Assembly (NCBI GenBank): GCA_002839805.1
Contig: PGYT01000002.1
Coordinates: 1 to 64,000 of the forward strand
DNA length: 64,000 nucleotides
Source of the DNA: Ignavibacteriae bacterium HGW-Ignavibacteriae-2
Lineage (GTDB): Bacteria; Bacteroidota; Ignavibacteria; Ignavibacteriales; Melioribacteraceae
Direction: 5' to 3'
Positions 15,447-34,346 of the stretch are shown here, one piece after another. How positions within the stretch are numbered: the first letter of the stretch is position 1; each line of letters begins with the position of its first letter. The notes beneath the pieces were generated by a model that was given only the letters and a program-made list of their open reading frames with translations, searched no databases and was not told the origin of the DNA. Both the position numbers and the translations under genes were made by a program.

Positions 15447-16442
15447 TTATTCTCTGAAATCATTTTCCGGGATCGGTTTGTTGTCAAGCACTTCCTCAAT
15501 TTTCAACATTACATCATCGGTTAATTTTGAAACAACATTTATTGCCGACATATTTTGTTTCACCTGATTCGGATTTGACGCACCTGTAATAACACTGCTT
15601 ACATTAGTATTTTTTAAACACCAGGCCAAACCCATATCCGCCTGACTGATTCCTAATTCATCGGCAAGAGGTTTAAGTTTTTTTACTTTTTCAATTTTTT
15701 CTTTTCCGGCTTCACTTAGAACTATATTTTTAAGCCACTCATAGTTAGCAAGATTAATTCTGCTATTATCGGGAATACCATTGTTATATTTTCCCGTTAT
15801 CACTCCACTTGCCAATGGACTCCATATAGTTGTACCCAGACCAACCAAATCATATAATGGCAAATACTCTTTTTCAATTTTTTCTCTTTTAAACATATTG
15901 TATTCGGGCTGTTCCATTAATGGTGGTATAAGGTGTTCGTTTTTGGCGATATAATAAGCCTGTAATATTTGTTCAGCTCTCCACTCGCTTGTGCCCCAGT
16001 ATAACGCTTTACCCTGATTTATTAAACTGTTCATCGCCCACACTGTTTCTTCAATAGGCGTGTGAATATCGGGACGGTGACAATAAATTAAATCCACGTA
16101 ATCCATTTGCAGTCTTTTTAGAGCCGCGTTACATCCTTCAAAAATATGTTTGCGGGATAAACCTCTGTCATTAGGTCCTTTTCCTCCCCAAAATATTTTT
16201 GTGGAAATTATAAGGTCGCTTCTTTTCCATCCGGTTTTTTTTACAACTTCGCCCATAATTATTTCGGCATTTCCACCTGCGTAAGCTTCCGCATTATCGA
16301 AAAAATTTACTCCGGCGTCAAAAGCTTCTTTCATACATTGATAAGCTATGTTGGTGTCGAACTGTTCATGAAAAGTAACCCATGCGCCATAGGATAAAGC
16401 AGATATTTTAAGTCCCGATTTTCCTAAAAATCTATATTCCAT
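15447..16442 (-). CDS. Aldo/keto reductase (Kv-beta / YghZ-like subfamily)
   Basis: The protein has 331 residues. The TIM-barrel aldo/keto reductase signature is visible: FFDNAEAYAGG (catalytic Asp/Tyr region), LIISTKIFWGG (Lys), YVDLIYCHRPD (His) and a C-terminal NADPH-binding segment SSVITGASNPNQVKQNM. The start MEYRFLGKSGLKIS resembles Kv-channel beta-like reductases. It should reduce carbonyl compounds with NADPH; the substrate is unknown. ATG 16442 is preferred over an upstream TTG at 16457 because GAGAGGG lies 5 bases before it. It is convergent with the csp genes. Confidence 0.9.
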   Translation of the reverse strand: MEYRFLGKSGLKISALSYGAWVTFHEQFDTNIAYQCMKEAFDAGVNFFDNAEAYAGGNAEIIMGEVVKKTGWKRSDLIISTKIFWGGKGPNDRGLSRKHIFEGCNAALKRLQMDYVDLIYCHRPDIHTPIEETVWAMNSLINQGKALYWGTSEWRAEQILQAYYIAKNEHLIPPLMEQPEYNMFKREKIEKEYLPLYDLVGLGTTIWSPLASGVITGKYNNGIPDNSRINLANYEWLKNIVLSEAGKEKIEKVKKLKPLADELGISQADMGLAWCLKNTNVSSVITGASNPNQVKQNMSAINVVSKLTDDVMLKIEEVLDNKPIPENDFRE

Positions 16443-16518
16443 TTTTCCCTCTCGCAATTATTTAAATTATACGCAACATATTCAGACAAACTGATAATAT
16501 TCAATAATAATTATTGAT

Positions 16519-17214
16519 TTAGCTTAAATCCAAGATTTTCTTTACGTCTTTGTCCCTGCCCATCATAACGAGTTTGTCTGATTCTTCTATTACCGTTGTA
16601 GCTGTGGGGACACCATAAATTCTTTCCTTAACTATCTGTCCGCCTGTCTCTTCGTCGTCTATTTTATACTGTCTTTTTATGGTAATTAAGTTCACATTGA
16701 ATCTCAGTCTCAGATCAATTTCCTGAATCGATTTTCCAATAAAGTCTTTAGGTGTTTTAATCTGAACTATTGTATAATCGTCTCCAAGCTCTATATAATC
16801 GAGCACATCTTCATTTATTAAACTTGTGGATACCTTAGCGGCAATTTCCAGTTCAGGATTAATTATTTGGTGAATTCCAAGTTTCTGAAGAATAGTTTCC
16901 TGAATTTTTGATGAAGCGCGAGCTATAATTTTTTTAACACCCATTTTTAGCAACAACACAGATGTAAGTATTGTACTTTCAAAATTTGTTCCGATTGAAA
17001 CAATTACCGCGTCAACTTTATCCAGCCCCAATGATCTTAAAGCTTTCTCATCAGTAGAATCTAGACGCACAGCGTAAGTAACTTTGTCTTTAATCTCTTC
17101 AATTACATCCATATCCTGGTCAATGGCAACGACTTCGGCATTTCTTTCTGCCAAAGAAATAGCGACGCTCCAGCCGAAATCACCTAATCCAATAACTGCA
17201 AATTTTTTATTCAT
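16519..17214 (-). CDS. TrkA/KtrA-type potassium channel gating subunit
   Basis: The 231-residue cytoplasmic RCK protein has a Rossmann nucleotide-binding half with GLGDFG at residues 9-14 and VVAID at the end of the second strand, where the acidic residue binds NAD/ATP ribose. A TrkA_C ligand domain covers about residues 145-230. It gates the TrkH/KtrB-type pore encoded immediately upstream (12 bases apart). It is the last gene of an ion-homeostasis operon with antiporters and an MscS channel. TrkA_C domains of relatives bind c-di-AMP; whether this one does cannot be read. Confidence 0.92.
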   Translation of the reverse strand: MNKKFAVIGLGDFGWSVAISLAERNAEVVAIDQDMDVIEEIKDKVTYAVRLDSTDEKALRSLGLDKVDAVIVSIGTNFESTILTSVLLLKMGVKKIIARASSKIQETILQKLGIHQIINPELEIAAKVSTSLINEDVLDYIELGDDYTIVQIKTPKDFIGKSIQEIDLRLRFNVNLITIKRQYKIDDEETGGQIVKERIYGVPTATTVIEESDKLVMMGRDKDVKKILDLS

Positions 17215-17226
17215 AACTGAACTCCA

Positions 17227-18984
17227 TTACAAAATTGAAATATTTTCGCTCGGAAAATCATAATTCGGTTGTTCTTTGGGTTTCATAATACTGTAAATAA
17301 ATGCTAGCGGACCGACTCTTCCAATGAACATCAGAAAAGTTATAACAAGTTTTCCGCTATCTGTTAAAGATCCTGTAATACCACGAGACAATCCAACAGT
17401 TCCGAAAGCGCTGAATGACTCGAACATAATATCTATAAGGTTTTTATTTTCAGAAATTGTTAAAAACAATATTCCCGCCGAAATTATACCTATGCTGAAA
17501 AATGTTTTAATAAAAGCTTTTAAAATTATTTCACGCGGTATTGTGCGGTTTCCAATAGTTACATGCTTTTGATTTCGCAGAATTGACATTGTACCTAAAA
17601 TCATAATTGCGAATGTAGTAGTTTTAATACCGCCTCCGGTACCTCCCGGCGAAGCCCCTACAAACATAAGAAATAAAACAAACAGGGAAGTTGTTAATCC
17701 TGTTTTAGCAAAATCAATCGTATTAAAACCAGCCGTTCGAGATGTAACAGATTGGAAATACGAAGCGTGTATTTTTTGCGCTTCGTCTAGTCCGGACAAC
17801 GAATATCTCAATTCTAACAGATAAAAAACCACAGTGCCAGAAACTATTAGCGCCAGTGTTGTAATCACAATTATTCTTGTCTGAATAGAAAAACGTTTTT
17901 GAGAAGCAGGTAATTTTGTCCAGATTCGTTTTGACCACAAGCTCATTATCGTTGGGAATCCTATACCGCCCAAAATAATTAAAATGGAAATTGTGGTTGT
18001 AAATAGATAATTGGAAATAACGAGGTTATCCATTAGGTTCAAGGTAAAGAGCGAGAATCCCGCATTACAGAAAGCTGAAACGGAATGAAATATTGAAATA
18101 AAAATGGCCGCGCCAACATCGTCATAATTTTGATGAATGCTAAAAAACAAAATGGCCGCGCCTAAAAGTTCGATTACAAATGTAGTGACTGTTAAAAAAG
18201 ATATAACTTTCGTAATAGCGCCAATGTTTTCCTCATCGAGAAGATCATGCAGAATAATACTTTCTTTAATCCCCAATCCACCGGAAAGGAAAATCGCAAA
18301 GAAAGTTGTAAAAGTCATTAATCCTAATCCGCCGATCTGAAATAAAAGCAATATCACTATCTGTCCGAAAGAAGTGAAGTAAGTGGCGGTATCCTGCGTA
18401 ATTAATCCCGTTACACACACCGCACTTGTTGAGGTGAAAACAGCGTCCACTACACTAATGCCTCCGTTTACAGTAGCGGCAGGTAATAATAATAAAAGGG
18501 CACCGATTGTTATAGTCGCTAAAAAACTTAAAATAAATAACCGTGACGGATGAATTTTAGACTGCAGAATGTTTTTATTATAACGGAGACCCCCTAAAAT
18601 TAGTCCGATAATTATAATAATCTGGGCGAATAAAATATATAGATAGGCTATATCTTTAAAGTGAAGCACATTGCCAATCTTTTCAACAAAACTATAATCG
18701 AAGAATGAAAGAATCAGTTCGGCAAAAATAAAAGCTAAAATTATAAGTTCAATTTTATGTGATTTGATGTACTCCTTTTTGCTTTCTGATATAAAAAAAT
18801 GAAGAATCTGATAAAGAATAAATACTATAACAACACCCAGAGAAATATAGTGGAGAATTACAGCGTCTTCCCTGCTAAACTTAAATCCATATTCTATTAT
18901 TATTGCTCCTAAGCCGAGCGCACTGGTAATAAATATTAAAATACGCGAAAGTTTAACAATCCAGTTTATTTTTTCTTTTTTCAT
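17227..18984 (-). CDS. TrkH/KtrB-family potassium uptake membrane protein
   Basis: The 585-residue integral membrane protein has four M1-P-M2 repeats. The pore-loop glycines are seen in SAVCVTGLIT, SAFCNAGFSL, TSRTAGFNTI and FGTVGLSRG. An extra N-terminal stretch of about 130 residues holds four or five hydrophobic helices that are not part of the core family, making it longer than a usual KtrB (about 450). It should form the K+-translocating subunit with the TrkA-like protein encoded just downstream. It lies 16 bases from the MscS gene, so co-transcription is likely. Confidence 0.92.
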   Translation of the reverse strand: MKKEKINWIVKLSRILIFITSALGLGAIIIEYGFKFSREDAVILHYISLGVVIVFILYQILHFFISESKKEYIKSHKIELIILAFIFAELILSFFDYSFVEKIGNVLHFKDIAYLYILFAQIIIIIGLILGGLRYNKNILQSKIHPSRLFILSFLATITIGALLLLLPAATVNGGISVVDAVFTSTSAVCVTGLITQDTATYFTSFGQIVILLLFQIGGLGLMTFTTFFAIFLSGGLGIKESIILHDLLDEENIGAITKVISFLTVTTFVIELLGAAILFFSIHQNYDDVGAAIFISIFHSVSAFCNAGFSLFTLNLMDNLVISNYLFTTTISILIILGGIGFPTIMSLWSKRIWTKLPASQKRFSIQTRIIVITTLALIVSGTVVFYLLELRYSLSGLDEAQKIHASYFQSVTSRTAGFNTIDFAKTGLTTSLFVLFLMFVGASPGGTGGGIKTTTFAIMILGTMSILRNQKHVTIGNRTIPREIILKAFIKTFFSIGIISAGILFLTISENKNLIDIMFESFSAFGTVGLSRGITGSLTDSGKLVITFLMFIGRVGPLAFIYSIMKPKEQPNYDFPSENISIL

Positions 18985-19000
18985 TTGTATACGATAATTT

Positions 19001-20047
19001 TCAAGAGATTAGTGTTTTCACCGCTCTATCGATAATCAAATTGAGTGAATGTTTATGTTTATTAACGAACTTGGGATCGATAATATAAACTTGTAATTGA
19101 TAAACTCTCGTTTTTGAAACAAAATCATTTTTTACAAGATATACTTTTGGTTCAAGTTTTGAATATGTATATGGAGATGAAAGCGCAGCTTCATAAATAA
19201 TTTTAATCAATTGTTTCGCTTCATATTCAAATCCGAATTCATATTCAATTGATATGATTTGTTCTTTTTTCGCGATGTTTAATTTCACTACCGGTTCTGT
19301 AAGAAAAATACCATTTGGAATTGAAATAATATTTGCGTTTTCATTTGATATGGAAGTATATCGCAGAGTAATCCTTTGAACAATTCCCTGATGAGCGTTA
19401 ACCGATATATAATCTCCCCGCCGGAATGGAGTAGATATTGATATGTAGAAACCACCAATTATATTTTTTAGCAGGGGGATTAAAGAAATACTAAATAGTA
19501 TTAACACAATAAAAATTAAAAATACTATAAATTCTTCCGTATCCTTAATAACGGCTGATATCATTGAATATATTATTACAATCCATATAGAAACTTTAAG
19601 GGCAGTGATTAAAAATTTTATATAGAGGTATTTCTCCTGAAGATTTTTAACCCTGCTGAAAAAATCTATCGATTGTGTTATTAAAAATCCCAGGCCTAGA
19701 AGAATAATAATATGGATTAACGTATAAAACGAAATATCCTTATCAAGCGATAAATTCGGCACTTTAAATTTTGGCAACATTTTTTTTACGACAGAACTAC
19801 TTTTATCTTTTTGATTTGTATTATCGGTTGTAAAGTTATCTGTATTTACTTGAGTTGTAGTATCGGATTGTATTTTTTTTATATTGTCCAGCAGGCTCGA
19901 ATCAGATTCAGAATCAATGTTTTTATTGCCTAAGGAATCCAGCTGTAAAGAATCGGTTATAACAATAGAATCAATAATGGCGTTGTTGTTCTGCCCATAC
20001 ATTGAAACTTGAATTGCTATTAATATTATTATAATTATTTTTTTCAT
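19001..20047 (-). CDS. MscS-family mechanosensitive channel
   Basis: The protein has 348 residues. A signal peptide (MKKIIIIILIAIQVSMYGQ) is followed by about 85 polar residues, then three or four membrane helices (about 110-210). The MscS beta domain follows with PFRRGDYISVNAHQGIVQRITLR and ISIPNGIFL. The last 100 residues match the alpha/beta cytoplasmic cage. It should open on membrane tension and release ions. The gene ends 16 bases before trkH and begins 6 bases after the antiporter-ATPase gene, so it belongs to one turgor/ion operon. Confidence 0.88.
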   Translation of the reverse strand: MKKIIIIILIAIQVSMYGQNNNAIIDSIVITDSLQLDSLGNKNIDSESDSSLLDNIKKIQSDTTTQVNTDNFTTDNTNQKDKSSSVVKKMLPKFKVPNLSLDKDISFYTLIHIIILLGLGFLITQSIDFFSRVKNLQEKYLYIKFLITALKVSIWIVIIYSMISAVIKDTEEFIVFLIFIVLILFSISLIPLLKNIIGGFYISISTPFRRGDYISVNAHQGIVQRITLRYTSISNENANIISIPNGIFLTEPVVKLNIAKKEQIISIEYEFGFEYEAKQLIKIIYEAALSSPYTYSKLEPKVYLVKNDFVSKTRVYQLQVYIIDPKFVNKHKHSLNLIIDRAVKTLIS

Positions 20048-20053
20048 CGGCGA

Positions 20054-23000
20054 TTAGAACATGTTCCTTTTAAACAATTCATTTTCAATAAGCTTATAAA
20101 TAAATTTGTTAACAAAATATCTGTTCGATAAAAATTCTATTTGATCTACAAACACAATATTTAACGATGTAAGGTAAACGAGAATTTCCCTGCTTTCTTC
20201 AACTGATATATCGAACAACCGGGAATGTTCGGTGTCCGTTAAAGAATCATGAGTCAAAATTTCAGATAACGTAAGTAAATAAATATCGTCCAATCTGGAT
20301 AAAACTGAAAGCTGCACCTTTTTTAATGGACGAATCAAAAGTTTATTTTCATAAACCTCGTGAATCGATTGCAGCCAATAATACATTCCGGCAATAATAT
20401 TACCATCGCAGTATTCTTCCAATCTGTCAAAATATACTTTCGATAGATAGGCTTGCTCTTCTTCTTCAGTTTTGCCCTTAAATATTTTGTTTTTTAATTC
20501 TCTTAAATCGTCCGGTTGAAAATATAAATTATATCCCGTTGAATTATGTCTGTTAAGTATAATATTTCTAACATCGTTTCGATGAAGATCTGAAATAAAA
20601 ATTTTATTGAGAAATACTTTGTTGATTTCGAAACTGTTATTTATGAATGTCCATGGATGTTTACCTATAGTACAAAGCCAAAAAATGTTTTTTGAAGTAG
20701 CCGATACTATATAAGCGAATATTTTAATCGCCTCATAACCATTAATAGATTTGAAAAATAATTTCCCAATATTTTCGAGAACAATAATCTGTTTATTCGA
20801 TTTATCATTCAAGCTGAGTATAAGGTCCTCTAATTTAAGCTGTTGAGAGTAACCTAATAAACCAGAGAGAATTTTTAGCAGTTCTTCCTGATGTTTAATT
20901 GTAGTAGTAAAATTATGTGTTTTTATCTGACTGTTTTTTAAAAAATTATAAATTATCGAGTTGACAAGTGTGTTTTTTCCACTGCCGGGTTCACCAATTA
21001 ATAACGTTGCGGAATACTTTCCGGTTTTGTGATTTTCAAGGGCTTGTAAAATTTTTCTTTCCAATAAGTCATTCTTCACAAAAAAATCATCCGATTCAAT
21101 TGTAGTGCCGTCAAATAATTTTCTATAAAGGAAAGGGAGTTTTTTTAGCCTCTGTTCGTTTAAGAAAAAGTTCTCACTTATTAATTCTTTTTCATCAGGT
21201 TCGCTAATTATAATATGTGATATTAAACCATCTACAAAGTGTTTGAAGTGCTTATGGTAAAAGCGCTGCGCTAATATTCTATACTTACGTTCAACTTTCA
21301 GCACAATCGAGACTTTTTTCTCAATAAAATTAACTAATGTTTTTTTGTGAGAAATTCTGGAAACGAACATACTCGAGCGAAGAATTGAATTGTCAATAAT
21401 ATATTTATTCAGCGTTTTTATTGCATTGTCAACTTTTTCAAATATTTTGGAATTGATGTTGGATTCCAATCTGTCAATTTGTTGATTTAATTGCTGAATT
21501 CTATATTCAAGTTTATCCGCTAATGAATGAACCAACTCGACGGCTAAAGCAGAATTAAATTCCTGATTGCTTTTTATTTCATTCTCCGCTGTTTTTACAT
21601 GATATAGAACAATTGAATATAAATTTTTCAACTCGTTAATTGTGATATTAAGATGATTTATCAGGAGCTCGTTGATTTCCCCAATTTCACGCGGAAGTTT
21701 ATGTTCTAAGATTGATTTAGCGATTTTCCTCAGTTGAATCTTTTTTAACTCAGTAAAAACAGGCACCCGATTACTAAACTTAAAATCAGTTTCTTCAAGC
21801 AGTTCCACAGTCTCCGGTAAATTATTTGCCTCTTTCGTAAAACTTTTTATCAGATGTTCCAATAGATTATTTAAATTTTTACCCCTTTTTATTTCTTCGA
21901 GGTTTTCGGTGTAGTTTTGTATTGTAGCAATTAAATTTTCATTACGTGTGTTGTTAATTAACGATTTAAGAATGTCTTTTGGATCTGTATTTCCCAAATC
22001 TTTTTTAAAACTGCTAATTCTACTAAGAATCTCTGAACTTACAGTTCTAAGGTTATTATTTACTTCTTCCGAAATATTAATAAGTGTATCGTTTACTACT
22101 TTTGACAACTTCACTTTCAATAGGTTGGAATAAGCTTGTTTCTCAAATTGACCAATAAATCCGATATAAAAATTAACCCAATACCTTATTGCCTCCAGGG
22201 TTAGCTCTTTCTCAATACTGCTTTTGGCAAATATTTTCGAATATTTTAACGAAGTAGAATCGAACTTATAAGTGCCTGCAATTCTTAAGGTGTCAATCAA
22301 TTTATTAAAAGGATTCGAAAGCGCATAGGTTAAACGTGTACTGATTTCAATAGTGGTGTTGTTTATCTCTGTTCTGTAAACGTTTATTTCATTGCTAAAA
22401 GTTTCGTGCAGACTCTGAAGTTTGCCAAGAATAATATTTTTCAGATCAGGGTTATATTTTTCATTTTCAGAAATTATAATTAGTTCATCGAGATATTTTA
22501 GATAATCCTCAAAAAGCCTTTTAATCTTTCTCAAAGTTGTTAATCTTTCGCCACCCACAAGATTTACAGTTTCAAGAATTTCTTCGGCGGATTGACCTAC
22601 CAAAAAATACTTCGCTATATTTTTATAATCTATTTTTCTGGTTAACTTAAAATCCTTATTAAATAAACCTAACACAAAACGTTTTGATCTATAATACGTT
22701 TTATATAATTTATCCTTCTTTGAATCTTCTTCACCAAATTTTAGGAAATCTTCTTCTAAGTCTACTAAAAACTCTCTTTGCAGGCCGTCGGTTAAATCTA
22801 CCAAAGAAATGAAAAGATCATTTACAAGGGTTTCCAGTTTTAAAATATTTTTTTCTACATTTTTTCTCTCAGAACATAATTCCAAGTACCATTCAGACAA
22901 TTCTTTTTTAAGCTCTCGTAATCTTTCTTTTATTTTAATATTGGAAAACTCAGCGTCCTTTATCGAAGATCTTATAGCTATATAATCGTCGGTATATTTT

Positions 23001-24550
23001 TCACTGACACTTATTACTAACTCAAGTGACTCTTCAGATCGCTGATAAATAAATCGGCTATCAAAATTTTTAAGTATATCATTAAGTTTATAAACTATCT
23101 GATATAGTGATTTGTTCAGTTTTTCACTTGATAAATCCGGTTCTATAAATTTTTCTGAATAATCTTTTACAACTTTTATTACTTTGGATTGAATTATTTT
23201 TTTCACTTCTTTTGTTTTTGTTTCAGGTTCAGCAGTAACAGCCGCCGATGATTTACCCAGACCAATTTTAAGCAGTATAGGTCCCAGGAAAAGATTGAAG
23301 GCGACAAGCGAAGTTATAAGAACTTTTAATTCAGTACCAAATCCCGGCAATTTCTGTTCAATTAATATTGCCAATCCCAACATTAAACCACCGATTGACA
23401 TAAAACCCATCCATCCATATTCGGCAGTTGACTTAGCCTCTTTCGCGATTTTTGAGGCAAATTTAACAGAGAAATAAAGAACAGCCGCTCGCACGATAAA
23501 CAGAATGAGCCCAATGATAAAAGTCGCTTTGATAGAATTGATATCAATAGAGGCGCCTGCGACTGTAAAAAAAGTAATAAAAATAGGAAGCGCTAATTTT
23601 TGAAGGGGTTGGTGTAAAATTTCTGCAAAGTCCGAAAAGTTTTGAAGTACGAATCCGGCTGTAACAAATACAATAAGTGTTTCTAAATGCAGCAGCGCTG
23701 AAATTTCACTCGCGATCATCACGAAAGCAAAAATAAAAAGAAGCATTTCCTTACCGATAAATTTAATATAACCGATAAGCGATGCGCCGAATACAATACC
23801 TACAAGAACGGAAAACAGAAGTTCTAATCCTAAATCGGTAAAAATTTCGGGTTTAATCTCCGAAGCGGGATTAAGCAGCGCGGCCGATACGGTAAGACAT
23901 ACAGCCAGGAGCAAAATCACGAGTATATCTTTAACTATAGTTGTACTCAAAATTAAATCTATAAACCGCCCTTTCGCTTTTGCTTCATCGGCCACTACAA
24001 GGGTCAATTCAATTGAAGTCCCAAGAGCGATTACCGATAATAATAATCCAGCCGCAAGTTTCATACTCCAATTTGCTTCGTATAAAAAAGGAATATAAGG
24101 CGATAGCAAAAAGATGAGTCCGGGTATTATCAAAAAGATTAATACTGTTTTGAACAACAATATAAGCGATATAGATTTCAGCGAATTCTTAATTCCTGCA
24201 AGTTTTAATTCCATTCCGGCGGTTAGTGCTATAACACTTAACGTAACTGTGTTAATTAAATTCAAATCCTCCAGAATATCTTTTGAAAAAACAGTAAGTG
24301 AAGGAATAAATAAAATTTCGGCGGAATAGGGCCCGAATAAAATACCGATTATTAAGTAGCCTATTACTCGGGGTAATTTTATAAATGATAACAATTCCCC
24401 CAGCGTGAATGAAGCGAGAATTACAAAACCCAGCACAGCTAAAGTTTTAGGATTTACGGGTAAGAATATTTCTGTCTGAATAGATTGAATAAATAATATT
24501 ATACCAAAAAGTATGGCTATAATGGTCAGACGTCGGAGCAAAGCTATCAT
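20054..24550 (-). CDS. CPA2-type cation/proton antiporter fused to a coiled coil and P-loop ATPase
   Basis: The protein has 1498 residues. Residues 1 to about 430 are membrane helices of a CPA2/Kef-type exchanger (LGELLSFIKLPRVIGYLIIGILFGP at the usual N-terminal position; TTIVKDILVILLL at the ion-binding helix). Residues about 440-1130 are helical and charged and largely coiled coil; there is no RCK/TrkA_N domain as in KefB. Residues about 1140-1498 carry an AAA/STAND-like NTPase with Walker A GEPGSGKN at 1186-1193 and a Walker-B-like IIVLEN, then a helical, possibly winged-helix C-terminus. A transporter joined to an ATPase of this type is not an architecture I recognise. It overlaps the upstream gene by 4 bases (ATGA). 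Nucleotide-controlled gating is an inference. Confidence 0.85.
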   Translation of the reverse strand: MIALLRRLTIIAILFGIILFIQSIQTEIFLPVNPKTLAVLGFVILASFTLGELLSFIKLPRVIGYLIIGILFGPYSAEILFIPSLTVFSKDILEDLNLINTVTLSVIALTAGMELKLAGIKNSLKSISLILLFKTVLIFLIIPGLIFLLSPYIPFLYEANWSMKLAAGLLLSVIALGTSIELTLVVADEAKAKGRFIDLILSTTIVKDILVILLLAVCLTVSAALLNPASEIKPEIFTDLGLELLFSVLVGIVFGASLIGYIKFIGKEMLLFIFAFVMIASEISALLHLETLIVFVTAGFVLQNFSDFAEILHQPLQKLALPIFITFFTVAGASIDINSIKATFIIGLILFIVRAAVLYFSVKFASKIAKEAKSTAEYGWMGFMSIGGLMLGLAILIEQKLPGFGTELKVLITSLVAFNLFLGPILLKIGLGKSSAAVTAEPETKTKEVKKIIQSKVIKVVKDYSEKFIEPDLSSEKLNKSLYQIVYKLNDILKNFDSRFIYQRSEESLELVISVSEKYTDDYIAIRSSIKDAEFSNIKIKERLRELKKELSEWYLELCSERKNVEKNILKLETLVNDLFISLVDLTDGLQREFLVDLEEDFLKFGEEDSKKDKLYKTYYRSKRFVLGLFNKDFKLTRKIDYKNIAKYFLVGQSAEEILETVNLVGGERLTTLRKIKRLFEDYLKYLDELIIISENEKYNPDLKNIILGKLQSLHETFSNEINVYRTEINNTTIEISTRLTYALSNPFNKLIDTLRIAGTYKFDSTSLKYSKIFAKSSIEKELTLEAIRYWVNFYIGFIGQFEKQAYSNLLKVKLSKVVNDTLINISEEVNNNLRTVSSEILSRISSFKKDLGNTDPKDILKSLINNTRNENLIATIQNYTENLEEIKRGKNLNNLLEHLIKSFTKEANNLPETVELLEETDFKFSNRVPVFTELKKIQLRKIAKSILEHKLPREIGEINELLINHLNITINELKNLYSIVLYHVKTAENEIKSNQEFNSALAVELVHSLADKLEYRIQQLNQQIDRLESNINSKIFEKVDNAIKTLNKYIIDNSILRSSMFVSRISHKKTLVNFIEKKVSIVLKVERKYRILAQRFYHKHFKHFVDGLISHIIISEPDEKELISENFFLNEQRLKKLPFLYRKLFDGTTIESDDFFVKNDLLERKILQALENHKTGKYSATLLIGEPGSGKNTLVNSIIYNFLKNSQIKTHNFTTTIKHQEELLKILSGLLGYSQQLKLEDLILSLNDKSNKQIIVLENIGKLFFKSINGYEAIKIFAYIVSATSKNIFWLCTIGKHPWTFINNSFEINKVFLNKIFISDLHRNDVRNIILNRHNSTGYNLYFQPDDLRELKNKIFKGKTEEEEQAYLSKVYFDRLEEYCDGNIIAGMYYWLQSIHEVYENKLLIRPLKKVQLSVLSRLDDIYLLTLSEILTHDSLTDTEHSRLFDISVEESREILVYLTSLNIVFVDQIEFLSNRYFVNKFIYKLIENELFKRNMF

Positions 24551-25791
24551 AGTTTTTCCCCGGTAATTTCTCCGACATCAATTAGTAAATTCTTTGCAAA
24601 CGAAAAACCGAAAATATTAAATATAATTACTCCGCTAAGAATAGCGCTGACTACAATTGGCGTAAGTTCGTTTTTGTAAACATTCATATAGTCAACAACC
24701 ATGGCACAAGCGATTATATCCAAAGACATTAATCCATTTCCAATTTTAGCAGTAACTATTTCTTTGGAATAAGCTGAATGGAAAGATATATATCCGGCTA
24801 TATATTTGGATAAAAAACGCAATAAAATAAAAGCGGGCACAGCAATTAAAAAAGTGTGAAGATCAGCAGGCACCCACATAAAGCCGGCTATTACGACAAT
24901 TAAAATATTTAACGGATGGCTCAAACGTTTAAGCGATTTTTCTATATTCACAGTAACTTTTGATACATTTGTTAGCGTGGCGCCTAATATAAAATTCATG
25001 TATAAGGGTGAAAAATTTAAATAGTACGCTATACCGCTTGTAAAAAGTACAACACCAAGAACGGCTACAAACAATTTATTTTCATCTGTTTCTCTTCCGA
25101 TAAAAATGAAGAATAAAAACCCTATCAATATAGCGAGTAAAATACTTATCACAATCCATTCGATCGATGTGAAAAAAACATTTTTACTCGAACCAATATG
25201 AATTATTCCGAATAGAAGACCATAGATAAAAATATTAAGATTCGAATTTATAAGTGAGGAATTGTGCAAGGAATCTCCAACCACGCCTGTCGAATCGTTT
25301 TTTTCCCTTAAAGTACGGATAATAAAGTTTGAGGATAGCGCCCCAACAATACTTAAAGCATAAGCCGCTGCGATTAATTCATTTAGATTATTTCCGTTGT
25401 AGAAGAAATAATAAAAAGCGGAGAATGATGTTAGTCCTATTAATACCAAAGATGTTAAGATTTCCGAAAAAGCGATTCGCCAGTGTTCGGGCTCCGCTTT
25501 ACTAATTGCCGAGAATTTAAAATTTAATCCGTAAATAAAACCGAGAATCCCAATTGAAGCCGTAAGTCCGGGAGAAATTTGAGACAATAATTCCTGATTT
25601 ATAATTTGAAGGTAGTTTATCTTAAAGCTGCTGTTAATCCAATTAGAGAAATTCGGGCCTAAAATTATTCCTAAAAATACATATTCAACACCCGAGGGCA
25701 CATAATATTTTAGTTGTATTCTACTGAAAATAAAATGTGTGCTTATATAACCGATGATCAATACAACTAATAATAATACTATAGATTCCAT
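24547..25791 (-). CDS. CPA2-like antiporter membrane protein, first gene of the ion operon
   Basis: The 414-residue protein has about 12 hydrophobic helices. The N-terminal part (VEYVFLGIILGPNFSNW and ISPGLTASIGILGFIYGL) resembles the start of CPA2 cation/proton exchangers. There is no soluble domain. It overlaps the next gene by 4 bases, which suggests the two antiporter-like proteins are translated together and may pair in one complex. The family assignment is moderate because the catalytic acid pair is not obvious. The ion specificity is unknown. Confidence 0.75.
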   Translation of the reverse strand: MESIVLLLVVLIIGYISTHFIFSRIQLKYYVPSGVEYVFLGIILGPNFSNWINSSFKINYLQIINQELLSQISPGLTASIGILGFIYGLNFKFSAISKAEPEHWRIAFSEILTSLVLIGLTSFSAFYYFFYNGNNLNELIAAAYALSIVGALSSNFIIRTLREKNDSTGVVGDSLHNSSLINSNLNIFIYGLLFGIIHIGSSKNVFFTSIEWIVISILLAILIGFLFFIFIGRETDENKLFVAVLGVVLFTSGIAYYLNFSPLYMNFILGATLTNVSKVTVNIEKSLKRLSHPLNILIVVIAGFMWVPADLHTFLIAVPAFILLRFLSKYIAGYISFHSAYSKEIVTAKIGNGLMSLDIIACAMVVDYMNVYKNELTPIVVSAILSGVIIFNIFGFSFAKNLLIDVGEITGEKL

Positions 25792-26263: not shown

Positions 26264-26440
26264 GAGCTTATTTTTTATTTGGCTCCGGTAAATGTGATTA
26301 AAAATAATATTCTCCGAGTTATCAGTCCTAAGTTTAACAATACGGCTGTATAACCGATAGGGGTTAATTAGAAATGATTTACCCTGCCACTTTGCAAAGG
26401 AGATTTCAAATTGAATATTTTGAAAATATATATTTTCCTG
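26263..26440 (+). ncRNA. Candidate molybdenum-cofactor (Moco) riboswitch aptamer
   Basis: This is a non-coding leader upstream of moaA/moaC/moeA/mobA. Visible helices are GGAGC (26263) with GCTCC (26282), and a hairpin from GGGGTTAATT to ATTTACCC whose top contains AGAAATGA. After it come CCTGCC and then CTTT-GCAA-AGG, a GNRA-type tetraloop hairpin. The AGAAATGA hairpin followed by a CC-rich strand and a GNRA-capped stem resembles the Moco RNA (moaA leader of enterobacteria) as I remember it. It ends directly before a transcription terminator, which fits expression-platform control. A covariance-model search would be decisive. Confidence 0.62.
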
Positions 26441-26483: not shown

Positions 26484-26801
26484 ATGTCAATTCCAAAACG
26501 TTACACTAAATTCAAACACGATTATTCTGAAGTTGCAGCTGCTTACGAATCCATGAATGACTCTGTTCATGCCGCCGGCCCGCTCGATGAAAAAACAAGG
26601 GCTTTGATAAAATTAGCAATTTCAACCGGCGCACGATTCGAAGGATCGGTACATTCGCATACAAGAAAAGCATTAAAAGCTGGAGCCTCAGCAGAAGAAA
26701 TACGACATACCATAATGATGTCGCTTCCTACAATAGGACTGCCTTCCATGATGGCGGCATTATCATGGGCCGATGATATATTAGAGGATAAAAATGATTG
26801 A
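26484..26801 (+). CDS. Carboxymuconolactone-decarboxylase-family protein without redox cysteines, copy 1
   Basis: The protein has 105 residues. It has the CMD/AhpD-like helical fold pattern: LDEKTRALIKLAISTGARFEGSVHSH, then KALKAGASAEEIRHT and LPTIGLP. In AhpD relatives the core motif is CxxCxxxH; here both Cys positions are replaced, leaving EGSVHSH. It is therefore unlikely to be a peroxidase and may use the His residues for another reaction or bind metal. It is about 60% identical to the protein at 41655-41966. It overlaps the transporter gene by 8 bases and leads the Moco operon. Confidence 0.88.
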   Translation: MSIPKRYTKFKHDYSEVAAAYESMNDSVHAAGPLDEKTRALIKLAISTGARFEGSVHSHTRKALKAGASAEEIRHTIMMSLPTIGLPSMMAALSWADDILEDKND

Positions 26802-27315
26802 ACTGCTTGATTTATTTATATCGTTTGTTAAAGTGGGTTCTTTTTCTTTCGGGGGCGCATATTCTTTAATCCCATTAATCGAAAAAGAATGTGTACAAAA
26901 TAATCATTGGCTTACACACGACGAATTTTTAAAAGTCCTTGGTATGGTAGAAGTATTCCCCGGAGCAATTTCTATTAAATTCGCTACTTATACAGGCTTT
27001 AAAGTTGGCGGTGTATTGGGCGCAGTTGTGGCCAACTTAGGCAATCTTATTATGCCCGCAACAATTATTATGTTAGCGGCTTATTTTATGACCGCTTTTG
27101 AAAAGAATGATTATGTAATGAAGGCTTTTCGTGGAATTAAATATGCTGTTATAGGCATGATAGTAGCGTTAATTTATCAATATGCAGTTAGAAATTTTGA
27201 AGACTGGAAAGGAATAATTTTTATGCTTGTTGGATTCGGCTTGATTTTTGCGTTTAAACTTCATCCGGCTTACGTTGTAATTATTTCCGGTATTTTGGCG
27301 CTGGTACTTTTATGA
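26794..27315 (+). CDS. Short-chain CHR-family (chromate-transporter-like) membrane protein
   Basis: The 173-residue protein has five to six membrane helices. The CHR signature is FVKVGSFSFGGAYSLIPLIEKE near the N-terminus, then MVEVFPGAISIKFATYTGFKVGG. Short CHR proteins usually come as pairs of related halves, but only one is encoded here. Chromate is the tested substrate for some family members. Placed inside a molybdenum-cofactor operon behind a likely Moco riboswitch, a molybdate, tungstate or sulfate role is plausible (inference). It overlaps the genes on both sides (8 and 4 bases). Confidence 0.85.
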   Translation: MIELLDLFISFVKVGSFSFGGAYSLIPLIEKECVQNNHWLTHDEFLKVLGMVEVFPGAISIKFATYTGFKVGGVLGAVVANLGNLIMPATIIMLAAYFMTAFEKNDYVMKAFRGIKYAVIGMIVALIYQYAVRNFEDWKGIIFMLVGFGLIFAFKLHPAYVVIISGILALVLL

Positions 27316-31153: not shown

Positions 31154-31609
31154 TTGCGGTTTTTATTCATTAACTCTGACCGGAAATATTTATTGACTGC
31201 CGACAAACAAATAACACGCAAAAAATTCTTCAGATATTCATTTTATCTGCTCACTTTTCCTCTCATCTATTTATGGGCAAAACTGATTGAGGAAAGGGAA
31301 AGTTTAATCGATACTAAAAAGCTTATTAAAATTCCTTTGGATCTGCCGAACGGCGCCTCGGTTTACGATGATGTTTTAATTTATAAGCAATACGATTTGC
31401 TTAAAATATTTTCAGCCAGTTGCACTCATCTGGGCTGCAAAATTAATAAAATTGATTCAGGTAATTTTGTTTGTCCGTGTCATGGTTCAAAGTATTTATT
31501 CAATGGAGAGGTTTCCGAAGGCCCGGCCTACAAAAGCTTAAAACAATTGGACTATAAAATTGATCAAAAAGAAAAAGTAATACTGGTTGAAATAAATGGC
31601 AAGGTTTAA
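31154..31609 (+). CDS. Rieske [2Fe-2S] protein of a cytochrome bc-type complex
   Basis: The protein has 151 residues. The cluster motifs are CTHLGC and CPCHGS, with the C and H residues that bind the 2Fe-2S centre. The N-terminus has ITRKKFF, a Tat-like TRKKFF motif, before one membrane helix (YSFYLLTFPLIYLW), as expected for a Rieske subunit. The start at 31154 is TTG, 4 bases after mobA; a second TTG at 31193, with GGAAA upstream, would give a shorter protein with the same helix and cannot be excluded. It overlaps the cytochrome gene by 14 bases. It should move electrons from quinol at cytochrome b. Confidence 0.92.
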   Translation: MRFLFINSDRKYLLTADKQITRKKFFRYSFYLLTFPLIYLWAKLIEERESLIDTKKLIKIPLDLPNGASVYDDVLIYKQYDLLKIFSASCTHLGCKINKIDSGNFVCPCHGSKYLFNGEVSEGPAYKSLKQLDYKIDQKEKVILVEINGKV

Positions 31610-34346
31610 TAAATTTTTGCGAACAAAATTAGTCCCATTATTCTATTTCGATACTTTTGGCAATATCGCTATTGCATCGCTAATTATCTGTTCTGTTTCC
31701 GGAATATTTTTAGCTATCGTTTTCGATGTTAATTCTCCATACGACTCAATCGCAAAAATTTTGATGATCAGTTCCTCAGGCACATTTATTAGAAATTTGC
31801 ATTATTGGAGCGCGCAGATTTTTCTGATTTTTACCTTTCTGCATATCTGGGATCATTTTAACAAAAAAACTGAAGGGAAAGTTAAACCAGGTGTCTGGCT
31901 ACGACTGACAATTTCAATTTCTGTGGTTCTTTTTGTTATGTTGTCCGGATTTATACTTAAAGACGATGCCGACAGCCGACAGGCATTTTTAATTTTACAA
32001 AACCTTATCGAAAACATTCCTTTTGCCGGGAATATACTTTCCAGTACATTTTTGGGAAGCGGAGAAAATCTGCAAATTTTATATATTCATCACATTGTTA
32101 CGGCAACTATTTTCATAATTATTGTAACATACGAACACTCAAAAATAATTTGGACAAAACTTTCAACTTTTTTTTATACACTTATTTATTCCGTTCTATT
32201 AAGTTTATTTTTAACTCCCGAACTTCATGATTCTTTATCACCAGTAATTAAAGGTCCATGGTATTTTTTGGGACTCCAGGAACTACTGCACTGGACGAGC
32301 AACCCGATATATTCAATAATAGTTTTATTTCTCCTAACGCTTTTATTTTATTTTCTGCCTAAATTTTCTTTTGAAAGACGAGAATTTTTCAAAAAAGGAT
32401 TTATCTACCTAACTCTCATTTATTTTACTTTAACTTTGTTCGCTTATTTTTTCAGAGGCGAAAACTGGTTATTAACCTTTCCATGGAACAATCCTAAGTT
32501 AAATTATTTTGACACAGGATTAATAAATTTCGAAAACAAATTCCCTGCAGATACAATCAAACAATTCAGTTACGCGAATAACCGTCTAGAAGGTTGTTTA
32601 ACATGTCATTCAAATATTTCCGGTTTTACAGATTCGCACAATCCGCAGGCGATCGGATGTACTTCGTGCCATGCAGGAAATCCATTTACGTTCGATAAAG
32701 ATAAAGCTCACTATCAAATGATTTTGATTCCGGGCAACGAATCTAATTATAATCGTTCTTGCGGCACTATTAATTGCCATCCTGCAATTGTACAGCGTGT
32801 ACCCAATTCAATTATGTCTACATTATCGGGAATGATAAGTGTAAATAAATTTGTTTTTGAAGAGGACAATTCACCGGATAATCCATATCATGTAAAAAAC
32901 CTGGGAAACAGTGCGGCAGAAAGTCATCTGCGTAATTTATGTGTTTCCTGTCATATTGGAAACGAAAAAACTGAATTGGGTCCCATTACTCAGCTCTCCA
33001 GAGGAGGGGGCTGCAACGCCTGTCATCTAAATTATACCAATGAAGCAAAATCCCAGTTATCTCTATATACTAAAAATATATCGAAAGATACACTTCCTCT
33101 TCTGCACCCAAGCTTATCATTGAATATCACTAATGATCACTGTTTTGGCTGTCATAGTCGTTCGGGTAGAATATCAACAAATTACGAAGGCTGGCACGAG
33201 ACCAAACTAAGACCGGATAATGTTGAAGAATCGGACAGATATAGAATTCTTGAGGACGAAAGAGTATTTGAATTTGTGAAAGCCGATGTTCATCACGTAG
33301 CCGGTATGGATTGTATTGATTGTCATAATTCTTACGAAACAATGGGGGATGGAAATTTATACTCCCATAAAGAAGATCAGGTTAAAATAGAATGTATTGA
33401 TTGTCATTTAACATCAGCACCACAGACCGCGAATATAAATTCTTTCGATGCGGAATCTAATAAGATAATCAAACTGAGAAAAATAAATTTTACCGGCCAA
33501 AAATTTTTGATAGGGAAAAAATCCGGTTACCCGTTAATCAATACATTTGTGGATTCTTTAAACAATGCGAAGCTTGTAACCAAAAACAGAAAAAAAACGC
33601 TCTTGCTGAATCCTCCTGCTAATATCTGCACTGCTGGCAAAGCCCACAAAGATCTATCATGCAGCAGCTGTCACACATCATGGGTGCCTCAATGTATAGG
33701 ATGCCATACCGAATATAATCCTGCAAACAGAAGTTTTGATCTGCTAATAAATAAAGAAATCAAGGGTGAGTGGATTGAACATATAGGAGATTTTTTTGCA
33801 GAACTGCCCACTCTTGGCGTAAAAACAAAAAAAGAAGTTGATGGAAGAGAAACGCGTGTAATTGATACTTTTATGCCCGGAATGATTATGACGCTCGACA
33901 AAAAGAATTTTAAGAATAATAATTCTAATACTATTTTCAAAAGGTTATTTGCTCCAACATTTTCACACACTATTAATAGAGAAAGCAGAGATTGCAAATC
34001 GTGCCATAATAGTTCTTTAGCTTTAGGTTACGGCAGAGGTAAATTAAATTTTATAATTTCCGGAAAAACAGGGCGATGGCAATTTATTCCCAAATACGCC
34101 GCAATTAAATATGACGGATTGCCTGAAGACGGCTGGACTGGTTTTCTTAAAGAAAGGCGAGACCAATCTGCTACTCGTTCAAACTCCAGACCTTTTTTAA
34201 TAGAAGAGCAAAAAAAGATACTGACTGTGGGGAGTTGTTTAATTTGCCATAAACAAACCTCTTCTCTAATTATTAATTCCTTAACACATTTTGATTCACT
34301 CAAACAGAATTTATCCCCTAAATGTGTGCTTCCTGATTGGAATTAG
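31596..34346 (+). CDS. Cytochrome b fused to a 12-haem cytochrome c
   Basis: The protein has 916 residues. Residues 1 to about 300 are a full cytochrome b: four helices with paired His ligands (LHYWSAQ, HIWDH, HHIVTA), then a subunit-IV-like part with GPWYFLGLQELLHW in place of the PEWY motif. From about residue 330 a large extracytoplasmic domain has eleven CXXCH sites and one CX4CH site (CGTINCH), giving 12 possible c-type haems. The neighbouring Rieske protein completes a quinol-oxidising complex, with the multihaem domain replacing cytochrome c1. This is much larger than a classical cytochrome b. The electron acceptor is not known. Confidence 0.9.
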   Translation: MARFNKFLRTKLVPLFYFDTFGNIAIASLIICSVSGIFLAIVFDVNSPYDSIAKILMISSSGTFIRNLHYWSAQIFLIFTFLHIWDHFNKKTEGKVKPGVWLRLTISISVVLFVMLSGFILKDDADSRQAFLILQNLIENIPFAGNILSSTFLGSGENLQILYIHHIVTATIFIIIVTYEHSKIIWTKLSTFFYTLIYSVLLSLFLTPELHDSLSPVIKGPWYFLGLQELLHWTSNPIYSIIVLFLLTLLFYFLPKFSFERREFFKKGFIYLTLIYFTLTLFAYFFRGENWLLTFPWNNPKLNYFDTGLINFENKFPADTIKQFSYANNRLEGCLTCHSNISGFTDSHNPQAIGCTSCHAGNPFTFDKDKAHYQMILIPGNESNYNRSCGTINCHPAIVQRVPNSIMSTLSGMISVNKFVFEEDNSPDNPYHVKNLGNSAAESHLRNLCVSCHIGNEKTELGPITQLSRGGGCNACHLNYTNEAKSQLSLYTKNISKDTLPLLHPSLSLNITNDHCFGCHSRSGRISTNYEGWHETKLRPDNVEESDRYRILEDERVFEFVKADVHHVAGMDCIDCHNSYETMGDGNLYSHKEDQVKIECIDCHLTSAPQTANINSFDAESNKIIKLRKINFTGQKFLIGKKSGYPLINTFVDSLNNAKLVTKNRKKTLLLNPPANICTAGKAHKDLSCSSCHTSWVPQCIGCHTEYNPANRSFDLLINKEIKGEWIEHIGDFFAELPTLGVKTKKEVDGRETRVIDTFMPGMIMTLDKKNFKNNNSNTIFKRLFAPTFSHTINRESRDCKSCHNSSLALGYGRGKLNFIISGKTGRWQFIPKYAAIKYDGLPEDGWTGFLKERRDQSATRSNSRPFLIEEQKKILTVGSCLICHKQTSSLIINSLTHFDSLKQNLSPKCVLPDWN

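Follow-up and report, generated by a model that had tools for sequence, protein, structure and literature searches.

We have analysed a window of 64 000 nucleotides (positions 1 to 64 000 of contig PGYT01000002.1) from Ignavibacteriae bacterium HGW-Ignavibacteriae-2. On its minus strand lies a single gene for a protein, P0001, that joins an exchanger domain of the CPA type to a long helical region, an AAA+ domain and a winged helix. The gene is preceded by that of a second exchanger-like protein, P0002, and followed by genes for an MscS-type channel and the potassium uptake proteins TrkH and TrkA. The helical and AAA+ parts of P0001 form a module that defines an unnamed family, and it is the MscS-type gene that almost always adjoins it. 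The most informative parts of the locus, P0002 upstream and the MscS gene downstream, lie on either side of the gene on which the original prediction was made. The features are as follows.

20054–24550, minus: fusion protein P0001, 1498 residues, exchanger – helical region – AAA+ – winged helix (single open reading frame, Pfam, AlphaFold model of residues 441–1498, orthologues)
23270–24415, minus: CPA-type exchanger domain, residues 46–427 (PF00999, E 1.1e-18)
23927–23932, minus: K207-D208, ion-site pair of transmembrane segment 5 (TM5), which is QD, ND or DD in known CPAs (alignment of exchanger homologues)
23489–23491, minus: arginine at CPA motif position 8, in TM10 (R in 34 of 34 homologues; motif as in PMC6181914)
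22280–23143, minus: helical unit 1, residues ~470–757 (AlphaFold secondary structure; similar to unit 2)
21212–22258, minus: helical unit 2 and connecting helix, residues ~765–1113 (AlphaFold; hhalign of both halves)
20312–21154, minus: predicted AAA+ domain of ORC/Cdc6/Apaf-1 type, residues ~1133–1413 (Foldseek, VIA)
20972–20995, minus: Walker A, GEPGSGKN, residues 1186–1193 (sequence; homologue alignment)
20057–20308, minus: winged-helix-like C-terminus, residues ~1415–1498 (AlphaFold; winged-helix regulators matched by profile, E 1.6e-4 at best)
24547–25791, minus: P0002, 414 residues, predicted pseudo-exchanger subunit of NapA/NhaA fold, ion-site Asp lost (AlphaFold, VIA, alignment)
19001–20047, minus: MscS-type channel with a signal-like N-terminus (PF00924; adjacency conserved)
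17227–18984, minus: TrkH potassium uptake protein (PF02386, E 2.1e-55; sole match in the genome)
16519–17214, minus: TrkA (RCK) regulator (PF02254 and PF02080)

The fused frame and its MscS-type neighbour

The frame of P0001 runs for 1498 codons from an ATG without an internal stop. Four bases (ATGA) are shared between its start and the stop of P0002, the MscS gene begins 6 bases past its own stop, and TrkH and TrkA come next at short spacing. Could an assembly or sequencing error have joined two genes? That explanation is refuted, and for practical purposes excluded, by the many genomes that carry the same joined frame, including a single-contig genome of 3.3 Mb (G010) and an Acidobacteriota chromosome record (L083) in which the orthologue has 27% identity. 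Seven further full-length copies, with 32–60% identity and the same neighbours, are present in 58 related genomes; orthologues at 60, 49, 47, 45, 43 and 32% identity are spread over other genera and one other family, the gene order being kept. A scan of named genomes gave full-length orthologues also in Ignavibacteria, Acidobacteriota (one chromosome record) and Myxococcota/Polyangia (several contigs). The order of antiporter, helical part and P-loop NTPase in one chain, as first read from the sequence, is therefore real.

The neighbouring gene matches the MscS beta domain (PF00924) with an E-value of 8.6e-15 and 55 bits, against a cut-off of 20.2. By a six-frame profile scan, 82 of 84 loci have an MscS-type gene as the immediate neighbour of the AAA+ gene. 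When the loci are clustered at 70% identity the figure is 70 of 72 (58 downstream and 12 upstream), and all three architectures described below are represented. The MscS gene follows the AAA+ gene in most loci, and precedes it in one clade (L160, L161 and L164–L173). The two exceptions are a locus cut by the contig end (L140) and a divergent member with a weak MscS-like neighbour (L163). MscS played no part in collecting these loci, for which AAA+ or exchanger sequence was used, and with 8 MscS genes among an estimated ~3,700 genes in this genome chance adjacency comes to ~0.4%.

How widespread is the module? At E <1e-15 the AAA+ profile finds it in 73 of the 395 genomes sampled from the phylum, mostly as one copy; our own count for the class is 32 of 391 genomes at E <1e-30, the weaker rows of the class-wide table looking like unrelated P-loops. 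A survey for the fusion and its neighbours found that the fusion recurs with the same gene order, but the module also exists fused to an SLC12/NKCC-like cotransporter (seven members) or as a free protein of ~1000 residues (50 members). Since the MscS gene is kept in both of these groups, it is the MscS channel and not the exchanger that is the constant partner. The architectures track the AAA+ tree, requiring three changes compared with a shuffled mean of 29.2, on a tree whose root and several deep forks are not resolved. Two members, L132 (truncated) and L159 (its exchanger part missed by the profile), were assigned manually to the exchanger type on the strength of their operon context.

The cotransporter fusions are a separate finding. 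Seven loci (L039, L040, L136–L139 and L162) encode SLC12/NKCC-like cotransporters of ~1700 residues with the same AAA+ module, each followed by an MscS gene; L039 matches AA_permease (E 5e-48) and SLC12 (E 7e-7) in Pfam. In L177 and L178, both from one Balneolaceae genus, the AAA+ part occupies a short frame (~300–413 residues) lacking the long helical part, as a split or shortened gene.

The order P0002-type gene – fusion – MscS(–TrkH–TrkA) is a conserved one, and several of the free members also have CorA as a neighbour. The genome has no TrkH other than that of the operon, and with MscS and TrkA beside it the operon fits the role in ion homeostasis that had been proposed for P0001. A search of Rfam found no potassium- or c-di-AMP-responsive riboswitch upstream of the operon. 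An aldo/keto reductase gene (15447–16457, minus) adjoins TrkA; this fold is that of the eukaryotic Kv-beta subunits. We have left it out of the operon, its place not being conserved in relatives.

Some other features of the window deserve mention. The only nearby Rfam match is a molybdenum/tungsten cofactor riboswitch (26300–26418, plus; RF01055, 74.3 bits), which fronts a divergent operon with MoaA-like and other molybdopterin-synthesis-like genes. Downstream of it, between carboxymuconolactone-decarboxylase-like and molybdopterin genes, is a half-size chromate transporter (26794–27312, plus; PF02417, E 8.2e-45). A protein of 916 residues (31596–34343, plus), encoded after a Rieske-like gene, combines a cytochrome b domain with a multihaem cytochrome c part, and is an unusual cytochrome b complex.

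Domains of the fusion and its companion

The N-terminal domain of P0001 scores 67.8 bits with Pfam Na_H_Exchanger, well over the cut-off of 26.2, and has the arginine at position 8 expected of CPA2 proteins, which have Lys or Arg there. To this extent it is the CPA2-type exchanger of the original prediction. However, the CPA2 subfamily model TIGR00932 gives 33.7 bits, far below its cut-off of 238.3, and Pfam found no TrkA_N match when a C-terminal RCK/TrkA_N domain was sought. The CPA2 proteins have D, N or Q at position 6, before the essential D (PMC6181914), whereas among the aligned exchanger homologues of P0001 position 6 is K in 30 of 33, followed at position 7 by D or E in 32 of 33. A Kef-like homologue in the same genome (L001) has the canonical QD at TM5. 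Judged on its sequence, the P0001 exchanger appears to be a CPA relative with a non-canonical K-D...R site, and no typical CPA2 protein. In a published model of the CPAs the absence of an acidic residue at position 6 leads to electroneutral exchange (PMC6181914). By this model P0001, if it exchanges ions at all, would be electroneutral, with the proviso that the model covers no lysine at this position. We also considered ion selectivity from CPA positions 1–4 (G-T-S-I/P); the alignment to the L-S-S-T of Kef is ambiguous, and so we make no claim for K+ or Na+.

P0002 has no significant Pfam match, and the exchanger profile detects it weakly. Its AlphaFold model (pLDDT 82) aligns with NapA (5bz2) over 372 residues (VIA Z 31.0, root-mean-square deviation (rmsd) 4.5), and its best fold matches include entries for SLC9C1 (Z 25–29). 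The ion-site Asp of TM5 is missing from P0002 and from all aligned orthologues. On this model P0002 is predicted to be an exchanger-fold subunit without the ion-binding residue. A P0002-type gene adjoins the fusion in nearly every locus with enough upstream sequence. It is more distant in L083 and L090, at ~2.9 kb upstream, where TrkA/TrkH-like genes intervene; it was not seen in L093 or in some contigs that end early. In three loci of Aminicenantes (L108, L110 and L112) a K-D...R subunit is preceded by a second exchanger-like gene. These hits proved to be exchanger pairs lacking the AAA+ module; the tandem arrangement is perhaps a pre-fusion state.

The remainder of P0001 was examined in an AlphaFold model of residues 441–1498, built from 33 sequences, with a mean pLDDT of 82 and a pTM of 0.52, so that the relative placement of domains is uncertain. 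The ~700 residues described as charged helix or coiled coil do contain a long helical stretch (residues ~470–1113, ~640 residues), but it is conserved and probably duplicated, not a plain coiled coil. In the model it comprises helices of ~50–85 residues together with short conserved strands. Its two halves align in hhalign with 90% probability and an E-value of 1.6e-6, in a single pairwise test whose score the helical composition may inflate. It is probably a conserved helical domain made from two copies of one unit. Transmembrane segments are not predicted within this region in the free family members.

A PDB sequence search with P0001 alone as the query gave no significant match, and none of the Pfam AAA/STAND models exceeds its cut-off in P0001: AAA_16 reaches 19.7 bits of a required 32.6 (residues 1165–1229, searched with the whole protein) and nSTAND3 reaches 23.1 of 27.2 on the AAA+ domain. 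The list from the structure search with the model is filled by AAA+ matches. Foldseek places Cdc6 in ORC first (E 2.4e-7) and also finds Apaf-1 (E 1.7e-5), and VIA aligns 243 residues of the AAA+ part with 7jgr_G (Z 13.9, rmsd 4.0). The C-terminus of P0001 is thus modelled as an AAA+ core followed by a winged helix, of the ORC/Cdc6/Apaf-1 (STAND-like) type, in agreement with its initial assignment as AAA/STAND-like.

The GEPGSGKN motif is where it was first placed, at residues 1186–1193, but its description as part of an ATPase is doubtful for P0001. The Ser/Thr of Walker A is replaced by Asn (GKN), and by N, R, K or Q in the nearest relatives, and in all of these Walker B ends in EN (LEN in P0001) rather than DE. 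The Walker motifs of other clades are intact or partly so, the Balneolaceae retaining GEKGSGKS. Because the residues for hydrolysis are degraded, we read P0001 as probably a nucleotide-binding switch rather than a motor, in which hydrolysis is unlikely.

A putative coupling of transporter and channel

What might this assembly do? We would give an even chance to the proposal that P0001 is part of an unnamed system of ion and turgor homeostasis, in which a nucleotide-gated module couples a swappable transporter to an MscS channel. The AAA+ domain would bind ATP or ADP, and perhaps read ionic strength, crowding or energy state. A nucleotide- or load-dependent change could be carried by the helical region, acting as a lever, and one module would touch both the exchanger and the MscS channel. 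In this way ion loading (by exchanger, TrkHA, SLC12 or CorA) and release (by MscS) would be set in opposite directions. The active exchanger and its Asp-less paralogue may form a heterodimer. The strongest argument for coupling of the module to MscS is that the MscS partner persists where the exchanger is missing or replaced.

Several points weigh against this proposal. Gene adjacency is no proof of physical contact. One fusion (L130) has K-S at the ion site, with the Asp lost, and in another (L159) no exchanger match is obtained for the N-terminal part, and so exchange is possibly not the conserved function. The Walker motifs are variable, and in several free members the Walker-A Lys is absent (GEKGSGTS); therefore the nucleotide may not matter in all clades.

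The best of the alternatives is that P0001 is simply an ATP-gated exchanger, its AAA+ domain acting in cis on the exchanger of the same chain as RCK domains do in Kef proteins, with MscS merely a co-expressed gene of osmotic stress. This is possible, and it has the covalent fusion in its favour. Exchangers with cytosolic regulatory domains are already known, ligand-binding in nature, as in the RCK of Kef and the cyclic-nucleotide domain of SLC9C1; moreover TrkH/TrkA, CorA and MscS are all plausible in one osmotic regulon. Against it, the MscS link survives without an exchanger, in the 50 free members, and with SLC12 in the other seven.

It is rather improbable that the exchanger-fold parts have ceased to act as H+ antiporters, and instead sense at the membrane and control MscS and TrkH through the AAA+ module. 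The lysine that replaces the D, N or Q of CPA2 at position 6, and the loss of Asp or of the exchanger match in the P0002-type companion, L130 and L159, would be natural for such a transport-inactive sensor, but the acidic residue and arginine kept at positions 7 and 8 are the pattern of a working site.

A STAND-type protein of signalling or anti-phage defence, with ion leakage as the effector, is very improbable and the suggestion of a defence role is unsupported: besides the ORC/Apaf-1 type of the AAA+ domain it can call on the sole PADLOC match, mad8 (E 2.6e-5, 21.9 bits), which is weak and to a generic P-loop, whereas the operon holds the only TrkH of the genome among channel and transporter genes, no defence genes adjoin in the loci read, and there is about one copy per genome in vertical-looking clades.

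Returning to the coupling of transporter and channel, a bolder form of it is offered tentatively. The locus might represent a new class of bacterial volume or turgor regulator, in which a nucleotide-binding ORC/Apaf-1-like module physically couples MscS to an interchangeable partner for ion loading (the exchanger pair with TrkHA, an SLC12 cotransporter or CorA), and a single protein would switch the filling and venting of the cell reciprocally. Seven subunits make up an MscS channel and can make up an Apaf-1-like ring; as speculation by analogy, matching rings of channel and module are conceivable.

If it were shown that one AAA+ module couples a swappable transporter to MscS, this would be a new class of system. 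The textbook view of MscS-type channels is of osmotic safety valves that open under membrane tension. If they had a dedicated and widespread AAA+ partner, some of them would also be under nucleotide or protein control. SLC12 is the family used by animal cells for volume control, and the presence of the same module on a K+/Na+ exchanger or on SLC12 according to clade suggests a common logic in bacterial volume control. For current models of antiporter stoichiometry, the K-D site, together with a partner subunit that lacks the Asp, would be a test.

Comparison with known systems

The original prediction knew of no described system with this order of domains. We likewise found no description of the P0001 architecture, or of the pairing of MscS with AAA+, in the open-access literature searched, which is weak evidence as most subscription journals lie outside it.

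The closest relatives in design are the Kef K+/H+ exchangers, which like P0001 combine an NhaA-fold exchanger with a C-terminal cytosolic ligand-binding domain in the context of K+ homeostasis. But Kef is a CPA2 protein with RCK/KTN and a Q-D...K site, whereas P0001 has the helical region, AAA+ domain and winged helix, with a K-D...R site, and in addition a second, Asp-less subunit and an MscS partner. The sperm Na+/H+ exchanger SLC9C1 is also fused to a nucleotide-responsive regulatory region; SLC9C1 has a voltage sensor and a cyclic-nucleotide domain and no AAA+, in contrast to P0001.

L039 and its relatives resemble the SLC12 cation-chloride cotransporters (prokaryotic CCC) in their matches to AA_permease and SLC12, and differ from them in the C-terminal helical and AAA+ module and in the downstream MscS gene. 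Like the ORC/Cdc6 and Apaf-1 ATPases of the AAA+/STAND type, P0001 has an AAA+ core followed by a winged helix, but the identity is ~12%, the Walker motifs are eroded, the context involves neither DNA nor death domains, and the attachment is to transporters or MscS. Lastly, a PF00924 channel is present in all but one of the complete operons studied here. For the described MscS channels no dedicated AAA+ partner gene is reported in the literature searched, whereas here an AAA+ gene directly adjoins the channel gene.

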